Notes under the pieces: generated by a model
What the model was told of the DNA's origin: nothing
Databases searched by the model: none
The model's input: only the letters and a program-made list of their open reading frames with translations
Position numbers and translations under genes: made by a program
Part shown: in pieces, positions 2,460 to 36,510 of the stretch
Numbering within the stretch: the first letter of the stretch is position 1
How the letters are laid out: each line of letters starts with the position of its first letter
Source: Lachnospiraceae bacterium
GTDB taxonomy: Bacteria > Bacillota > Clostridia > Lachnospirales > Lachnospiraceae
NCBI GenBank assembly: GCA_017449745.1
Contig: JAFTFD010000128.1
Span: 1-36,527 of the forward strand
Direction of reading: 5' to 3'
DNA: 36,527 bases

Positions 2460-3911
2460 TTACGCCTCATATACCTTGACGCCAAAAGAGTCAAATACGA
2501 GTCTGCGGAAATCAAACAGGTCTGCGCAGACGCCGTCCGCGATGAGCTGCGTGCCAAGGGTTCCGATGGCCGTTGCTTCGCCCGGACCTGCCAGGATCTT
2601 TTTGCCGGTCTCCTGTGCTGTCAGCTGGTTCAGCCAGACTGCATTGGAGCCGCCGCCGACGATATTGATCGCGTCAAAATGCTTGCCCGTGATCTCCTCG
2701 ATCTCTTCCGCTGCCTGTTTGTAGCAGACGGCAAGGCTGCGATAAATAACGCGGGCGATCTCCCAGGGAGTTTCGGGCACCTGCTGCCCGCTCTCGCGGC
2801 AGGCCGCCTGGACCTCGGCGATCATGGAAGCGGGGGCAAGGAATCTTCCGTCGTTTGCCGGCACTACAGAGCTGATCGTCTCTTTGGAAGCCATATCGCA
2901 GAGGTTGCCGAAGGAGTAATCCTCATTCTCTTTTCTGCCCTCATAGGCGTAGCCCTCTTCCAACTCTTTCTTGACAGACTGGATCATCCACAGGCCCATG
3001 ATGTTTTTGAGGAACCGGAAGCGGTAGTTGTACCCGCCTTCATTGGTGAAGTTGGCTTTCATTGCCTTCTCGGAGCAGTCCGCTTCTTTGAGCTCGCACC
3101 CGAAGAGTGACCAGGTTCCGGAGGAAATGTAGAGCGTATCGTCAGATGTAGACGGGACGCTCATGACAGCCGCGCCTGTATCGTGCGTTGCGGGCAGGAT
3201 CACGGTACAGTTGAAGCCGACCTCATTCCTGATCGCCTCCGAAAGATCGCCGACGACAGTGCCCGGCATGGAGATCTCACCAAACAGTCTTGTCGGGATC
3301 CCCAGTTTTTCGATCAGTTCATAATCCCAGGTCTTCTTGACGGGATCAACGAGCTGTCCTGTCGTTGCGTTGGTATATTCCTGTTTCTTGACACCTGTCA
3401 GGCGGAAATGGAGGTAATCCGGCATCATCAGAAGTGCCTGCGCCTTCTCCAGCGTCTCAGGCTCCTGGAGCTTTGCCGCCATCAGCTGATAAATGGTGTT
3501 GAAAATAGCTTTCTGAATACCGGTCCTGGCGTACAGGTCTTTTTCCGGGATGATCTTGTAGAGCTCTTCATCCACTCCTGTCGTGCGGCCGTCGCGGTAT
3601 GCATAGCATACGCCGATCTGCTCATCCTTCTCATCCAGCAGCACATAATCAACGCCCCAGGTGTCGATACCCATTGAAATCGGATCTTTGCCCGCCTCAT
3701 GGCATTTGCGCATGCCGGTGACGACTTCCTTGAAGAGTCTCTCCGTATCCCAGATGCGGTGCTCCGCGCCATTCACCTCTACGATGTCGTTTCCGTTCCA
3801 GAAGCGATACATTTCTTCCAGGACAAGCTTTCCATCTTCCATGTGTGCGAGGATATGGCGTCCGGAGGAGGCTCCGATATCAACAGCTAAATAGTATTTA
3901 GTTCCGTTCAT
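2460..3911 (-). CDS. rhaB: Rhamnulokinase
   Basis: An FGGY-family kinase that phosphorylates L-rhamnulose at O1 with ATP in the cytosol. The 483-residue frame shows the N-terminal phosphate-binding segment AVDIGASSGRHILA (about 9-22), the rhamnulokinase-typical GIDTWGVDY (81-89), and ATHDTG with the catalytic D244. The C-terminal nucleotide-binding half contains IVGGGSNAVWLNQLTA. I chose the start at 3911, preceded by GGGGAC; the open frame continues 47 codons upstream through the divergent promoter region but has no better site. The AraC-type regulator is divergent, with 182 bp between the starts, which suggests direct control. rhaD is downstream on the same strand. Confidence 0.95.
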   Translation of the reverse strand: MNGTKYYLAVDIGASSGRHILAHMEDGKLVLEEMYRFWNGNDIVEVNGAEHRIWDTERLFKEVVTGMRKCHEAGKDPISMGIDTWGVDYVLLDEKDEQIGVCYAYRDGRTTGVDEELYKIIPEKDLYARTGIQKAIFNTIYQLMAAKLQEPETLEKAQALLMMPDYLHFRLTGVKKQEYTNATTGQLVDPVKKTWDYELIEKLGIPTRLFGEISMPGTVVGDLSEAIRNEVGFNCTVILPATHDTGAAVMSVPSTSDDTLYISSGTWSLFGCELKEADCSEKAMKANFTNEGGYNYRFRFLKNIMGLWMIQSVKKELEEGYAYEGRKENEDYSFGNLCDMASKETISSVVPANDGRFLAPASMIAEVQAACRESGQQVPETPWEIARVIYRSLAVCYKQAAEEIEEITGKHFDAINIVGGGSNAVWLNQLTAQETGKKILAGPGEATAIGTLGTQLIADGVCADLFDFRRLVFDSFGVKVYEA

Positions 3912-4093: not shown

Positions 4094-5086
4094 ATGAATC
4101 AGGAATTATTACGACAGCTCAGTGTTATCACCGAAGAAGAGCGGTCGATCCTCTCCGGCAGCAAAGAAGTCAACCGGGCTTTGTATTATGACTCCGAAAA
4201 ATCCCGCGGCGCTTCCAATGAGATCGACTACGCCCGTGTTCTGACCAACGGCAAGCTCATCGATCTGCGTCCTCATGTGCGCTTCATTCATTTTCCCCGG
4301 CACACGCACAATTTTGTCGAGTTCATCTATATGTGCCAGGGAAGCACGACGCATATCATCGACGGCCAGACGATCGTCTTAAGGGAAGGGGATCTGCTCT
4401 TTCTGAACCAGCATGCCGCACAGGAGATCCTGCCCGCCGGGGAAAACGACATCGCCGTCAACTTTATGATCCTGCCCGAGTTTTTTGATACCGCATTCCG
4501 CATGATGGGGAACGAGGATAATGCGCTGCGCACCTTCATCATCAGCTGTCTGACAGAGCAGAACCGTGGAGGCAATTACCTCTATTTCCAGGTAGCCGAC
4601 GTGCTGCCGATCCAGAACCTGATGGAGAACCTGATCTGGATCATGAAAAGCGATCTCCCGAACCGCCGCTCCCTCTCCCAGCACACGATGGGACTGCTCT
4701 TTTTGCTGCTCACCAATTACGCCGACAAGATCTCCGTCTCCGGCAGCTCCTACGAGCAGAATATGATCATCCATCTGCTGAGCTATGTGGAAAATAATTA
4801 CAAGAACGCCTCCCTGTCTGTTTTTGCACAGCAGAACAGCATAGACGATTACACGCTCAGCCGCATGATCAAGAAAAATACCGGATCGACCTTTAAGGAA
4901 CTCCTGCAGGAAAAGCGCCTGAACCAGTCCTGTTTCCTGCTCACCAACACAGATCTGTCCGTGGCGGATATCGCCATCGCTGTCGGCTATGATAATACAA
5001 GCTTTTTCCACCGCCTGTTCCGGCGCACTTATGACATGAGTCCCAAGGAGTATCGCGCAAAAGAAGGAATTAGCTCTGACACATAG
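4094..5086 (+). CDS. AraC-family regulator of rhamnose genes
   Basis: The 330-residue protein has an N-terminal cupin-like sensing domain (metal or sugar pocket region HFPRHTHNFVEFIYMCQG, about residues 70-90). Its C-terminal AraC double helix-turn-helix lies at about 225-325 and ends VADIAIAVGYDNTSFFHRLF followed by MSPKEYR. By family and position it should be the activator or repressor for the divergent rhaB-rhaD group, functionally like RhaS/RhaR, though I cannot call it an ortholog. The ATG at 4094 follows AGGAAAAGGTG; the frame is open 23 codons further upstream but across the promoter. A strong terminator lies about 120 bp past the stop. Confidence 0.9.
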   Translation: MNQELLRQLSVITEEERSILSGSKEVNRALYYDSEKSRGASNEIDYARVLTNGKLIDLRPHVRFIHFPRHTHNFVEFIYMCQGSTTHIIDGQTIVLREGDLLFLNQHAAQEILPAGENDIAVNFMILPEFFDTAFRMMGNEDNALRTFIISCLTEQNRGGNYLYFQVADVLPIQNLMENLIWIMKSDLPNRRSLSQHTMGLLFLLLTNYADKISVSGSSYEQNMIIHLLSYVENNYKNASLSVFAQQNSIDDYTLSRMIKKNTGSTFKELLQEKRLNQSCFLLTNTDLSVADIAIAVGYDNTSFFHRLFRRTYDMSPKEYRAKEGISSDT

Positions 5087-5106: not shown

Positions 5107-5204
5107 ATGATGCAATAGCTTTGATGCAAAAGCCTTAATACAAAAGTCTTAATGCAAAAGCCTTGATACAAAAGTCTTGATATAAAAGTCTTGATGCAAA
5201 AAGC
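5107..5204. repeat. Seven 14-bp tandem units after the regulator gene
   Basis: Units of the form TTGATGCAAAAGCC or TTGATACAAAAGTC start at 5107, 5121, 5135, 5149, 5163, 5177 and 5191. GCAAAAGCC and ACAAAAGTC versions partly alternate, as if the array grew by duplication of pairs. The array runs directly into the terminator hairpin. Confidence 0.88.
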
Positions 5205-9341: not shown

Positions 9342-10016
9342 TTACCTTCTTCTCTCCTTCAGCGCAATATACAGATCATACAGGATCGATCCGGTCCTGC
9401 CATGCCTGGGATATTCATCCTCCCCGATCTCGAGAATGTAGTTTTCGTATGCGTTGATGATCTTTGTTCCGCCCGGATGCACCCTGACCCTCTGGAAATC
9501 GCGGGAGTAGTTCTGGTGGACGTGCCCGTGAAACATATAGGCCGGCTTCCACTTCATCATGAGGTCATTGAAGCATTCAAACCCCTGATGAGGCAGGTCG
9601 TCCATATCCCCCTGTCCCTTGGCCGGGGCATGCGTTACCAGAATATCAAAGCCGTTCATCAGAGTGATCTGCCGGGATACCTTTCGCACTCTCGCGCTCA
9701 TCTCCTGCTCCGTATACATATCAGAGCCCGGCTTGTAGCGCATGGAGCCCCCGAGGCCCAGGATCCTGAGACCGTGAAAATCGAAGACCTTATCTTCAAT
9801 GCAGTCGCATCCAAGAGGCGGATTTTTGTCGTATTTTCTGTCGTGGTTGCCGCGCACGTACAGGAGCGGCACGGCCGCCATTGTCACAAGAAACTGCAGA
9901 TAGTCGGGATGAAGGTCGCCGCAGGATATGATCAGGTCCACCCCTTTTACCCGCTCGGGGTCAAAAAAGTCCCACAGCGCCTTGTTCTCCTCATCTGCTA
10001 TCACCAATATTTTCAT
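9342..10016 (-). CDS. Metallophosphoesterase family protein
   Basis: A 224-residue calcineurin-like phosphoesterase. The motifs GDLH (33-36), GNHD (56-59), THAP (129-131) and GHVH (164-167) are in order and complete the dinuclear metal site. The first motif, normally D-x-H, reads IADEEN (D8 kept, His replaced), a variant to note but compatible with the YfcE-like group. Physiological substrate unknown; cytosolic. The ribosome binding site is weak (TAACGG). It is downstream of the BMP-fusion gene, separated by a REP-like palindrome, so cotranscription is uncertain. Confidence 0.85.
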   Translation of the reverse strand: MKILVIADEENKALWDFFDPERVKGVDLIISCGDLHPDYLQFLVTMAAVPLLYVRGNHDRKYDKNPPLGCDCIEDKVFDFHGLRILGLGGSMRYKPGSDMYTEQEMSARVRKVSRQITLMNGFDILVTHAPAKGQGDMDDLPHQGFECFNDLMMKWKPAYMFHGHVHQNYSRDFQRVRVHPGGTKIINAYENYILEIGEDEYPRHGRTGSILYDLYIALKERRR

Positions 10017-10038: not shown

Positions 10039-10132
10039 GGAGACAGGGGACGGTTCTCTGTCTCCTTCTGCACATTTGTATCGCTAATATGGTTTACGGG
10101 AGGAAGGAGACAGAGAACCGACCCCTGTATCC
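10039..10132. repeat. REP-like inverted repeat (GACAGGGGACGGTTCT core)
   Basis: A 30-nt left arm (10039-10068) matches the reverse complement of 10103-10132 with two mismatches, around a 34-nt loop. It begins two bases past the stop codon of the BMP-fusion gene. The core GACAGGGGACGGTTCT (10042-10057) is identical to that of the palindrome at 36213-36277, so the two belong to one repeat family. Confidence 0.88.
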
Positions 10133-10134
10133 TC

Positions 10135-12057
10135 CTACTGACAGACTCCGCTGACCTTCGCGGCGCTCTTGCCGGAATCGCTGAGTTCGTCCCCTTTCGG
10201 GATCCGGCCGACAACGTTCTCGTTGAGCCACTTCATGTTGATGATCTCTTCGCTCGTGGGTCTCGGAGATCCCGCCTCCCGCACGATCCCTTCCTGCGAG
10301 TGCATCTCCCCGTCAAACGGGTTGAAGGACCCGCTGGCTATACCGTGTTTAACGGCAGCCACAAGATTTCTCGTATGGTAAGGGAGGTGCTCCGAGACGA
10401 TCACATCGATCACTCCCGAGGACATTCCGTACCAGTAGTTGAGCGCCCGGCTCTCCTTTTCGATGTCCTTCGCCTCCCAGGAATCGTTGAGAATGCTGCG
10501 GATGATCAGTTCATAGTATTTTCCCCAGTCCCAGACAGGAGCTGCAAGGCTTCTGACCGATCCGTCCTCTTCCAGTTCAAAAATACCGTATTCTCTGGAT
10601 GCAATGGCTGGCATGATCAGATCCGGGCCCGAAATGACGCGGATCCCCTCTTTAAGGAAAGCGGCCTTCCAGTCCACATCCTTCTGTGAGGACCACTGCA
10701 GATAGACCTTGACCTGCGGGTCGACCATTCCGGCGCCGATCGCAAAAGCATTTATGTTCGCGATCACGCCCTTGATCGGATAGTCAGCAAGATATCCGAC
10801 CTTGTGGTCATGTGCCGCCTGTGCCGCGACAGCGCCCATAATGAATTTGGCCTCATGCATCCTGCCGTAATAGGTGCGCACGGCATTAGCCGCCAGATCG
10901 ATCGAGCAGTTCAGGAACTTGATCTGCGGATAGTGGATCGCGGCGCGCAGCGTATCGCTCATCATGGTGGGCGATGTCGTGATGATCACGTCATCCCCTC
11001 CTGCCACTGCCTTATCGATCGTTTCCATAATGGCTTCGGAAGACTGGCAGTCATCAAAGCGCTCCGTTTTAACGATCCCCTCAAATTTTTCTTCCAGGGC
11101 ATTTCTGCCAAGCTCATGGCCGTAGATCCAACGGGAGACCTCCGGGTTCTTATCATAGAGGAAGGCCACCTGCAGCGGGCGCGTGCGGCTGTAGGCCGGC
11201 AGGAGCTTGAGCGCATCGAGGATGCTGCCGCTCTGCGGGAGCTGCTCCGGCGCCTCGATCACGGCGATATGCTCGGTATTGGTCTGCGTGCGGAATTCCT
11301 TCCAGAGGCGGTCGATCCTCGCGCTGATCACAGAGGAGGAATCCTCCATCAGTGTCTGGACAGGATAAACCGTCAGATAGATCAGGAAAGCATCGCCGGA
11401 GGTCATATCCGACTTGTCCGCGTGCTTGGACTCATAGATCTTTTCAAACTCGGCAAAAGCTGCCTTTACGGTCTCCAGGACGTCATCCGGCCAGGGATCC
11501 TGCAGGTTCTGGCCGAGCGCCTCCGCAAACCTCTCGTAATATCCTTCTTCAGAGAAGAAGAATTCATAGATCGGAGCGACCTTGAAAAATTCAAGAAACT
11601 CGTAATAGACCTTGACAGGCTTTGCGTCGGAAAGCTTCGGGACGACGCGGGTGACGTCCGCCATAATGGAGCTGACGCCCACATATTTGCTGACGGAAAC
11701 GCGCTTATTTCCCTCCAGGACAAAGAAGCGGTTCATAAACTCGTAGGCCTTGATGGGATCGCGGATGCCCTCCTCGAGCTGGGAATCATAAAGGCTGCCC
11801 CACTTGGAGGCAAACTCCGTTTTTTCCTGCAGAATCGGCATAAAGCCGCTGGAAAACGCTGTCGTGCGCCCGGCTGTCCTTGTCCCGATTACATAGCGCA
11901 GCGGGATCTCTTTTAACCCGACCGGTACCTCCGCCAGGACTTCTACGTTTTTCAGAATATCATCCAGCACAGGGGGATAGGGCGAGCGGCCTGCTGCCAG
12001 GTCTCTTCTGTACTCTCTCATCCCCTGCCTTCTGGCATTTGAATAATCATCTATCAT
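10135..12057 (-). CDS. ParB-like/BMP-domain fusion protein, cytosolic
   Basis: A 640-residue protein. Residues about 55-135 look like a ParB/Srx-type fold region (YVIGTRTAGRTTAFSSGF, then EGNKRVSVSKYVGV, like the ParB-type EGNHR box). A helical linker (about 140-285) follows, then a BMP/PnrA-type periplasmic-binding-like domain (about 294-590, RPLQVAFLYDKNPEVSRWIYGHE onward). There is no signal peptide or lipobox, so it should bind its ligand, possibly a nucleoside or purine as in PnrA, in the cytosol. The start at 12057 follows AAAGGAAC; an upstream in-frame ATG at 12132 would add a hydrophobic stretch with no ribosome binding site. Usually annotated as a BMP-family substrate-binding protein, which is probably misleading. 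No ABC partner is next to it. Confidence 0.78.
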   Translation of the reverse strand: MIDDYSNARRQGMREYRRDLAAGRSPYPPVLDDILKNVEVLAEVPVGLKEIPLRYVIGTRTAGRTTAFSSGFMPILQEKTEFASKWGSLYDSQLEEGIRDPIKAYEFMNRFFVLEGNKRVSVSKYVGVSSIMADVTRVVPKLSDAKPVKVYYEFLEFFKVAPIYEFFFSEEGYYERFAEALGQNLQDPWPDDVLETVKAAFAEFEKIYESKHADKSDMTSGDAFLIYLTVYPVQTLMEDSSSVISARIDRLWKEFRTQTNTEHIAVIEAPEQLPQSGSILDALKLLPAYSRTRPLQVAFLYDKNPEVSRWIYGHELGRNALEEKFEGIVKTERFDDCQSSEAIMETIDKAVAGGDDVIITTSPTMMSDTLRAAIHYPQIKFLNCSIDLAANAVRTYYGRMHEAKFIMGAVAAQAAHDHKVGYLADYPIKGVIANINAFAIGAGMVDPQVKVYLQWSSQKDVDWKAAFLKEGIRVISGPDLIMPAIASREYGIFELEEDGSVRSLAAPVWDWGKYYELIIRSILNDSWEAKDIEKESRALNYWYGMSSGVIDVIVSEHLPYHTRNLVAAVKHGIASGSFNPFDGEMHSQEGIVREAGSPRPTSEEIINMKWLNENVVGRIPKGDELSDSGKSAAKVSGVCQ

Positions 12058-12293
12058 TGATTCTGTTCCTTTCAAATAAATCAAATAAAAACAAAGAAAC
12101 TGCGTTAAGAGCAGCTGCCCCATATTCATCACAATATGTTAATGATACCATCTTTTCGCAGTCTTGTAACTGTCCCTGTTTCCCGGCGCGCAGAATCTAT
12201 GCGATCTGCGCGATCTGTAAATGGTGCTGACATTACGTGCTGATGTAATCCGCAAATGTCGCTCCTGTTCAGCGCCGCTTCGATCTGCATGAG

Positions 12294-35830: not shown

Positions 35831-35846
35831 TTTTGTATTCCTTTCC

Positions 35847-36422
35847 TTATTGACAGCGTGTGCGCAGCCAGTAAGACCCCATGGTCTGCCCCGGCACTTC
35901 CGTCACATCGTTATTCAGGTAATCCGCCAGTCCTGCAGCCTCCGCCGAAAACTCCGCCGCCTCTTCCACGGATGAGAATTCTACCTCAGCATACCAGTAC
36001 TCCGTAGGCTGTCCCTCGTCCACGTGGTTGACCTCCAGTTCCAGTCCTCCCGGCAGCGCGTAGGTCCTTCTCTCCTTCGGGATCAGCGGAAGTCCGATCA
36101 TTTCCTCCAGCTGCTCAAAATGTGTCTCGGAGATCGGGAACTCGATCTCCTGTCTCACCAGTGTTCCTTTGGATTTAAAGCAGAGGATATATTCGGTGGT
36201 ACATGGGGACGTGGGGACAGGGGACGGTTCTGCGTCCCCTTCCTGCAGAAGGGGACGCAGAACCGTCCCCTGTCCCCCCTCCATCCGCGTCTCCTGCCGG
36301 ATCCGCACGGTAGGTTCCACCGTCAGATATCCCTGCCTCATATATTCACGTTTTAAGAGCGGCAGGTCTGCCTGCGGCCAGCCGTTTACGATCCATTTCT
36401 TTTCTATTTCCATCGGGTTCAT
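35847..36422 (-). CDS. CYTH-domain protein carrying an in-frame REP insert
   Basis: A 191-residue protein of the CYTH (adenylate cyclase/thiamine triphosphatase) superfamily. The ExExK motif is E5-I-E-K-K (EIEKKW). Conserved strand motifs VRIRQ (39-43), YILCFKSKG and RQEIEFPI follow, then LELEVNHVDEG and EVEFSSVEEA. Its probable role is binding and hydrolysing polyphosphorylated substrates with Mg. Residues about 49-71 are encoded by a perfect palindrome in the loop between VRIRQ and YILCF; without them the length (about 165) is normal for the family. AAAGGAG precedes the ATG. It is upstream of the M32 gene. Confidence 0.88.
   Translation of the reverse strand: MNPMEIEKKWIVNGWPQADLPLLKREYMRQGYLTVEPTVRIRQETRMEGGQGTVLRPLLQEGDAEPSPVPTSPCTTEYILCFKSKGTLVRQEIEFPISETHFEQLEEMIGLPLIPKERRTYALPGGLELEVNHVDEGQPTEYWYAEVEFSSVEEAAEFSAEAAGLADYLNNDVTEVPGQTMGSYWLRTRCQ
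36213..36277. repeat. Perfect REP-like palindrome inside CYTH gene
   Basis: A 30-nt left arm (36213-36242) is the exact reverse complement of 36248-36277, with a 5-nt loop CTGCA. The core GACAGGGGACGGTTCT (36216-36231) also occurs at 10042-10057. Total 65 bp; the reading frame stays open through it. Confidence 0.95.
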
Positions 36423-36445: not shown

Positions 36446-36510
36446 GGAGACAGGGGACCGGTCTGTGTCCCCTTATTCAGGAAGGGGACACATAACCCTC
36501 CCCAGTCTCC
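36446..36510. repeat. REP-like imperfect palindrome at window end
   Basis: Arms starting GGAGACAGGGGAC (36446 on) and the reverse complement of the stretch ending CCCAGTCTCC (36510) match with several mismatches. It belongs to the same family as the elements at 10039 and 36213. It lies just upstream of the CYTH ribosome binding site. Confidence 0.75.

Follow-up and report, generated by a model that had tools for sequence, protein, structure and literature searches.

A REPIN palindrome probably inserted in frame into a length-variable turn of a CYTH-type gene in a Lachnospiraceae bacterium

We report a hairpin-forming repeat of a genome-wide REPIN family that lies in frame inside a gene for a CYTH-type (triphosphate-tunnel type) protein in a gut-type Lachnospiraceae bacterium. 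The stretch of DNA analyzed, hereinafter the window, is the whole 36,527-nt contig JAFTFD010000128.1 of the assembly GCA_017449745.1. The weight of the evidence strongly favors the view that a REPIN entered a turn of this gene in frame, most likely through a RAYT-type transposase, and that its extra length was tolerated. It constitutes a clear new case, in a Lachnospiraceae-type genus, of a phenomenon described in other bacteria.

The palindrome spans positions 36213-36277, with arms at 36213-36242 and 36248-36277 separated by a 5-nt spacer. The two arms are complementary at 30/30 positions, and the perfect 30-bp inverted repeat that a first-pass annotation of this DNA had placed here holds to the base. 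Within it, the 16-nt REP motif GACAGGGGACGGTTCT occurs at 36216-36231 on the forward strand and at 36259-36274 on the reverse strand. The same annotation had anticipated a very stable mRNA hairpin in mid-gene, and the mRNA strand of 36195-36290 is indeed predicted to fold at -80.9 kcal/mol, versus -39.9 (sd 3.8) in 200 shuffles, none of which did as well (0/200; z -10.7). Two further copies are found in the window: a second, degenerate REPIN (36446-36510; 78% identical) immediately ahead of the ATG of the CYTH-type gene, and a third with a longer spacer (10042-10129) between the reverse-strand ORFs 9342-10016 and 10135-12132; like the first, neither is assigned a strand. The element contains no stops in any of the six frames, and a special pre-adaptation to coding was considered and rejected, such openness being common in shuffled palindromes (1646/3000 dinucleotide-shuffled and 993/3000 base-shuffled).

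The repeat is present elsewhere in the source genome, where the 16-mer is matched 75 times when a single mismatch is allowed (71 of these matches being exact), versus none for the reversed control. Facing pairs of plus- and minus-strand motifs account for 35 of the 43 elements recovered, with the other eight, including that at 36446-36510, scored as single. The motifs of a pair are offset by 41 to 297 nt and its arms are separated by roughly 3 to 260 nt, with the window copy representing the short form (offset 43), as do the copies on contigs C67, C98, C118, C32 and C356. Given the over-representation of the 16-mer and this facing-pair architecture, the window palindrome is a REPIN, a hairpin made of two REPs in opposite orientation, and belongs to a genome-wide family. 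The exact motif is present in 8 of 37 genomes of the same genus (source included) and in none of 24 genomes of the same order. The REP arms are kept matched to each other beyond chance, also in the source genome alone. There, the arms of nine short-spacer pairs differ at 2.11 positions versus 3.49 when the right arms are re-dealt among the pairs 2000 times (1/2000 as low), and those of 26 long-spacer pairs at 2.77 versus 3.5 (0/2000). Pooling 58 short-spacer pairs across five genomes gives 2.74 versus 4.31 (0/2000), a contrast that between-genome differences may inflate.

We also observed some variations in how these repeats are disposed. In one congener (G010:C55:3006-3103 and 5139-5195), REP motifs are repeated in the same direction at 41-base intervals instead of facing each other as the pairs elsewhere do. 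At seven loci (L050, L052, L055, L056, L064, L066 and L092), REPINs begin 1 to 12 bases after a stop codon that closes a long ORF. The contigs C67, C98, C118, C31 and C349 of the source genome start or stop in or near REPINs, suggesting that assembly is interrupted by the repeat.

The host ORF (35847-36422, reverse strand) begins with an ATG and comprises 191 codons, with its frame open through the whole element. The palindrome thus lies entirely within coding sequence and keeps the frame, as had been claimed, and the predicted protein is an intact 191 aa, with the insert following residue 49 or thereabouts. This protein by itself yields no Pfam match and aligns with 2fbl at an E-value of 9.6e-8. 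A profile built from the window protein together with 42 homologs (43 sequences in all) recovers NE1496 (2fbl, 3typ), which we take to be a CYTH triphosphatase, at an E-value of 3.7e-33, and the Pfam CYTH domain is detected in 12/43 family members, the window protein not among them. It is this family profile that supports the earlier naming of the host as a CYTH-domain gene. The ExExK signature is the characteristic motif of the CYTH or triphosphate-tunnel fold; E5 and E7 are invariant and K9 nearly so in the family, and the window protein displays EIEKK. On the same strand, just 16 bases (35831-35846) away, lies an M32 carboxypeptidase gene. We considered a conserved CYTH and M32 peptidase neighborhood and discarded it, as the adjacency recurs in 0/42 homolog loci, whose flanks covered roughly 1.5 to 3 kb and were shorter on one side in several.

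The possibility that the gene is a pseudogene whose frame stayed open by luck has to be weighed against these features. A stop-free palindrome is in itself not improbable, as the 1646/3000 shuffled versions with six open frames indicate. Nevertheless, of the 29 alignment columns with 95% or higher conservation among the other 42 sequences, the window protein retains 28, it runs full length to the usual C-terminus, and codon usage is coding-like on either side of the insert. Hence, we regard a pseudogene as extremely unlikely.

The alignment with 2fbl breaks into two blocks, one matching query positions 4-49 to residues 4-45, which is weak by itself, and the other matching 76-158 to 46-127, leaving 26 query residues between them without a counterpart. 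The insertion site thereby falls between residues 45 and 46 of NE1496, in a length-variable turn. The first-pass annotation had spoken of a surface loop; the turn is borne out by this alignment, and a location at the surface is suggested by the alignment alone. To place the insert among its relatives, 61 genomes, source included, were searched, and 39 gave a match, including 26 congeneric and 12 more distant ones. From these, 29 homologs were aligned (24/26 congeneric and 5/12 more distant), the other nine, all weak matches, being left out. The inserted residues appear in none of the 29, nor in any of the 42 loop strings extracted from homologs, in accord with the expectation that they would be peculiar to this strain. 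These strings, delimited by the RIR and K-S/G motifs, could be measured in 42 of 43 distinct homologs (29 aligned and 14 named records, deduplicated). The loop has 35 residues in the window protein; in the homologs it has ten in 31/42, nine in four, five in four, and 13, 17 and 48 in one each. As homolog loops vary from 5 to 48 residues, the turn also tolerates changes of length in other species. In one CYTH homolog (L010:1483-2103 in the congener G031), the corresponding loop is a different one of 48 residues, and G031 is devoid of the exact REP motif.

Measured against the usual loop, the net gain is about 25 residues or 75 nt, rather than the roughly 22 residues estimated earlier. Because of this gain (35 residues versus the usual ten), about ten bases adjoining the palindrome, 36203-36212, probably belong to the insertion as well. 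The likely inserted DNA accordingly comprises 36203-36277 (no strand assigned), about 75 nt or 25 codons, with borders drawn from the loop length. As no genome of the same species lacking the insertion was found, its exact borders and age are only inferred. The insertion may be recent, as had been suggested; the nearest homologs of the window protein are only about 66% identical and provide no date.

An insert of this kind could alternatively represent a lineage-specific extension selected for CYTH function or for regulation through the hairpin RNA. The perfection of the palindrome, the matching of arms throughout the family and the predicted stability of the mRNA hairpin would fit such a role, as would the different 48-residue version of the loop in the congener mentioned above. 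However, matched arms are expected of any REPIN and are not specific to the window copy, and the insert is known from one species only. We therefore consider a selected extension very unlikely.

A further alternative is that the arrangement is an artefact of assembly, in which a REP served to join the CYTH halves of two strains, or else to fuse a stray repeat to a genuine gene. The assembly comprises 393 contigs with 4.84% contamination, the window contig itself ends 250 bp from the element, and the five contigs listed above likewise begin or end in or near REPIN copies. Furthermore, the identities of the N- and C-terminal parts to the 42 homologs are weakly correlated (Spearman 0.26, p 0.09), and at this strength the homologs offer no independent proof of a single strain of origin for the two halves. 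Against this, the two halves read as a single gene in a single frame, whose loop exceeds the usual length by 25 codons, and a search of the source genome returned, beyond the gene itself, REP copies only (three of four matches). A second in-frame case is moreover found in another genome (G008). Hence, we hold a misjoin to be improbable and return to a genuine in-frame insertion as the favored explanation.

The frequency of such insertions was estimated from 201 distinct elements of eight congeneric genomes, namely the source, G008, G009, G010, G011, G014, G027 and G029, with some contig-end elements and some places in G027 left out. Nine of the 201 lie too near a contig end, leaving 192 testable. 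An open, coding-like frame runs through the element in 2/192, the CYTH-type gene and a gene for an ABC-transporter ATPase in G008, and the remaining 190 are without one, which upholds the prior description of the family as otherwise intergenic. In control runs, the through-frame test detected 1018/1080 simulated in-frame insertions, and falsely accepted 18/1080 frame-breaking ones and 2/1000 with shuffled flanks; the codon table behind it derives from the very window genes that served in the first two of these controls. An earlier codon-usage test with 120-nt flanks on 155 distinct elements scored nine as being on the same strand and in frame, seven of which are gene ends, with a stop before or within the element, and two the CYTH and ABC ATPase cases. 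With 180-nt flanks and a threshold of 0.25, that test failed to pick up the CYTH case.

The second in-frame REPIN, an independent case, resides in a gene for a 376-aa ABC-transporter ATPase (G008 L152:861-1991, on G008:C40, reverse strand), which matches PF00005 at 4.2e-31 and reaches no NCBIfam cut-off among the best 25 of 183 families. At the DNA level, the homologous gene in G011 shows 96% identity ahead of the insert and 91% behind it; the site itself comprises 19 bases in G011 versus 97 in G008, a net difference of 78 nt. REPs are absent from this site in all six homologs aligned, and the loops of these homologs vary in length. Taken at the level of sequence comparison, in-frame REPIN insertion is real and rare, and it occurs in two species, in both instances in variable loops. 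In a search for intergenic empty sites, the matches of two long G008 queries to three relatives stop beside the elements, as judged from hit coordinates only.

Four matches to Y1 transposases were recovered from the source genome, on contigs C358, C167, C256 and C310. The gene at C358:3797-4636 is RAYT-like: it matches PF01797 at 6.6e-14 and reaches 71.6 bits with NF047646, the NCBIfam model for REP-associated tyrosine transposases, just short of the required 80. REPINs of the family lie on both sides of it, at 3562-3726 and at 4654-4781. The contigs bearing the other three have no REP motif. A relative of the C358 gene is found in 6/8 motif-bearing genomes, that of G010 being only a fragment with stops, and in 18/53 motif-free genomes (13/29 of the same genus and 5/24 of the same order). 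No match to it was detected in G008 (83 exact motifs, 92% complete) or G027 (48 exact motifs, 82% complete). A co-distribution of RAYT and motif was therefore rejected, as the presence of one does not track that of the other well. With G008 and G027 devoid of a match and a relative present in 18/53 motif-free genomes, the responsible transposase is not settled, and the mobilizing enzyme of these two genomes may differ, may have been lost or may be missing from the assembly.

We propose that a REPIN of the genome-wide family would have inserted into the codons of the length-variable CYTH turn, with a RAYT-type tyrosine transposase, such as that encoded by C358:3797-4636, most likely catalyzing the insertion on single-stranded DNA. 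Being a multiple of three and stop-free, the insertion leaves the gene open and, at the level of sequence, lengthens the protein by about 25 residues. This copy would have survived on account of a turn that tolerates extra length, whereas selection would presumably have removed other copies that landed in genes, as suggested by the 190/192 testable elements without an open coding frame. The insert need have no function for the host, and the protein probably retains its activity despite it, while the hairpin in the mRNA may impede translation to a modest degree or draw in RNase III. The present analysis supplies a counted rate of 2/192 testable elements for protein-coding palindromes, together with an ABC ATPase case for which a close homolog without the insert, that of G011, is at hand. 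Such natural filled and empty pairs of one gene would render the effect of a mobile hairpin on protein and mRNA directly testable.

Judging by titles and the beginnings of abstracts, we found no published report of a REPIN family in a Lachnospiraceae-type lineage. REPINs, as characterized in the consulted portion of Bertels and Rainey 2011 (PMC3116915), derive from an over-represented 16-mer, form inverted hairpin doublets and are almost always extragenic; in P. fluorescens SBW25, 14 16-mers overlap genes, and the three commonest 16-mers occur 1067 times. The present family agrees with that account in its over-represented 16-mer, hairpin-forming inverted doublets and mainly extragenic population, and departs from it in sequence, in its Lachnospiraceae-type host, in spacers of about 3 to about 260 nt and in the intragenic location of the window copy. 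REP dimers wholly within ORFs of several species were described by Di Nocera 2013 (PMC3733652), with over half of the insertions contributing 20-30 residues and the intragenic REPs considered, in the sections consulted, to be potentially neutral where they fall in flexible linkers or loops. Further REP copies in that study lie near the 3' ends of ORFs, and RAYT genes have REPs on their flanks; the word "Firmicutes" is absent from its main text. Like those intragenic GTAG/CGTC REPs, the elements reported here comprise a REP pair inside an ORF, an insert on the scale of 20-30 residues and a REP-flanked RAYT. Unlike the GTAG superfamily, with its unpaired terminal GTAG, the window element lacks GTAG altogether. 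The CGTC superfamily, as presented there, has a terminal unpaired CGTC, a stem of 8-9 bp and no transposase, whereas here CGTC occurs only inside the arms and there is an association with a transposase.

The same source describes TIR repeats, which flank TIRYT transposases and contain the motif GGGGWSAS. Our elements resemble these, in a comparison by motif alone, in forming dimers and flanking a Y1 transposase, and GGGGACAG of the window copy fits GGGGWSAS, as does one REP beside the transposase (C358:3559); in contrast, most copies of the family read GGAGACAG, which does not fit. Finally, the Rickettsia palindromic elements (RPEs), the classic example of the phenomenon, measure about 150 bp and are inserted in frame in protein genes, with nearly half of them in ORFs according to the part of PMC10969869 consulted. 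The window element is likened to these by description rather than by sequence, as a palindrome in frame in a protein gene, and differs in that only 2/192 elements of its family are so placed. A broader proposal would hold that the RAYT-driven REPINs of this genus form an ongoing equivalent, in a distant phylum, of the Rickettsia elements, repeatedly supplying in-frame peptides of about 25 residues to the variable loops of ordinary enzymes (so far in two independent genes of two species) with the hairpin tuning expression of the recipient; we offer it as a speculation that is unlikely to hold in full. As far as the consulted text of these sources extends, intragenic in-frame REPs and palindromes that create protein sequence are already in print (PMC3733652 and the Rickettsia RPEs), and the elements reported here join them from a Lachnospiraceae-type genus.
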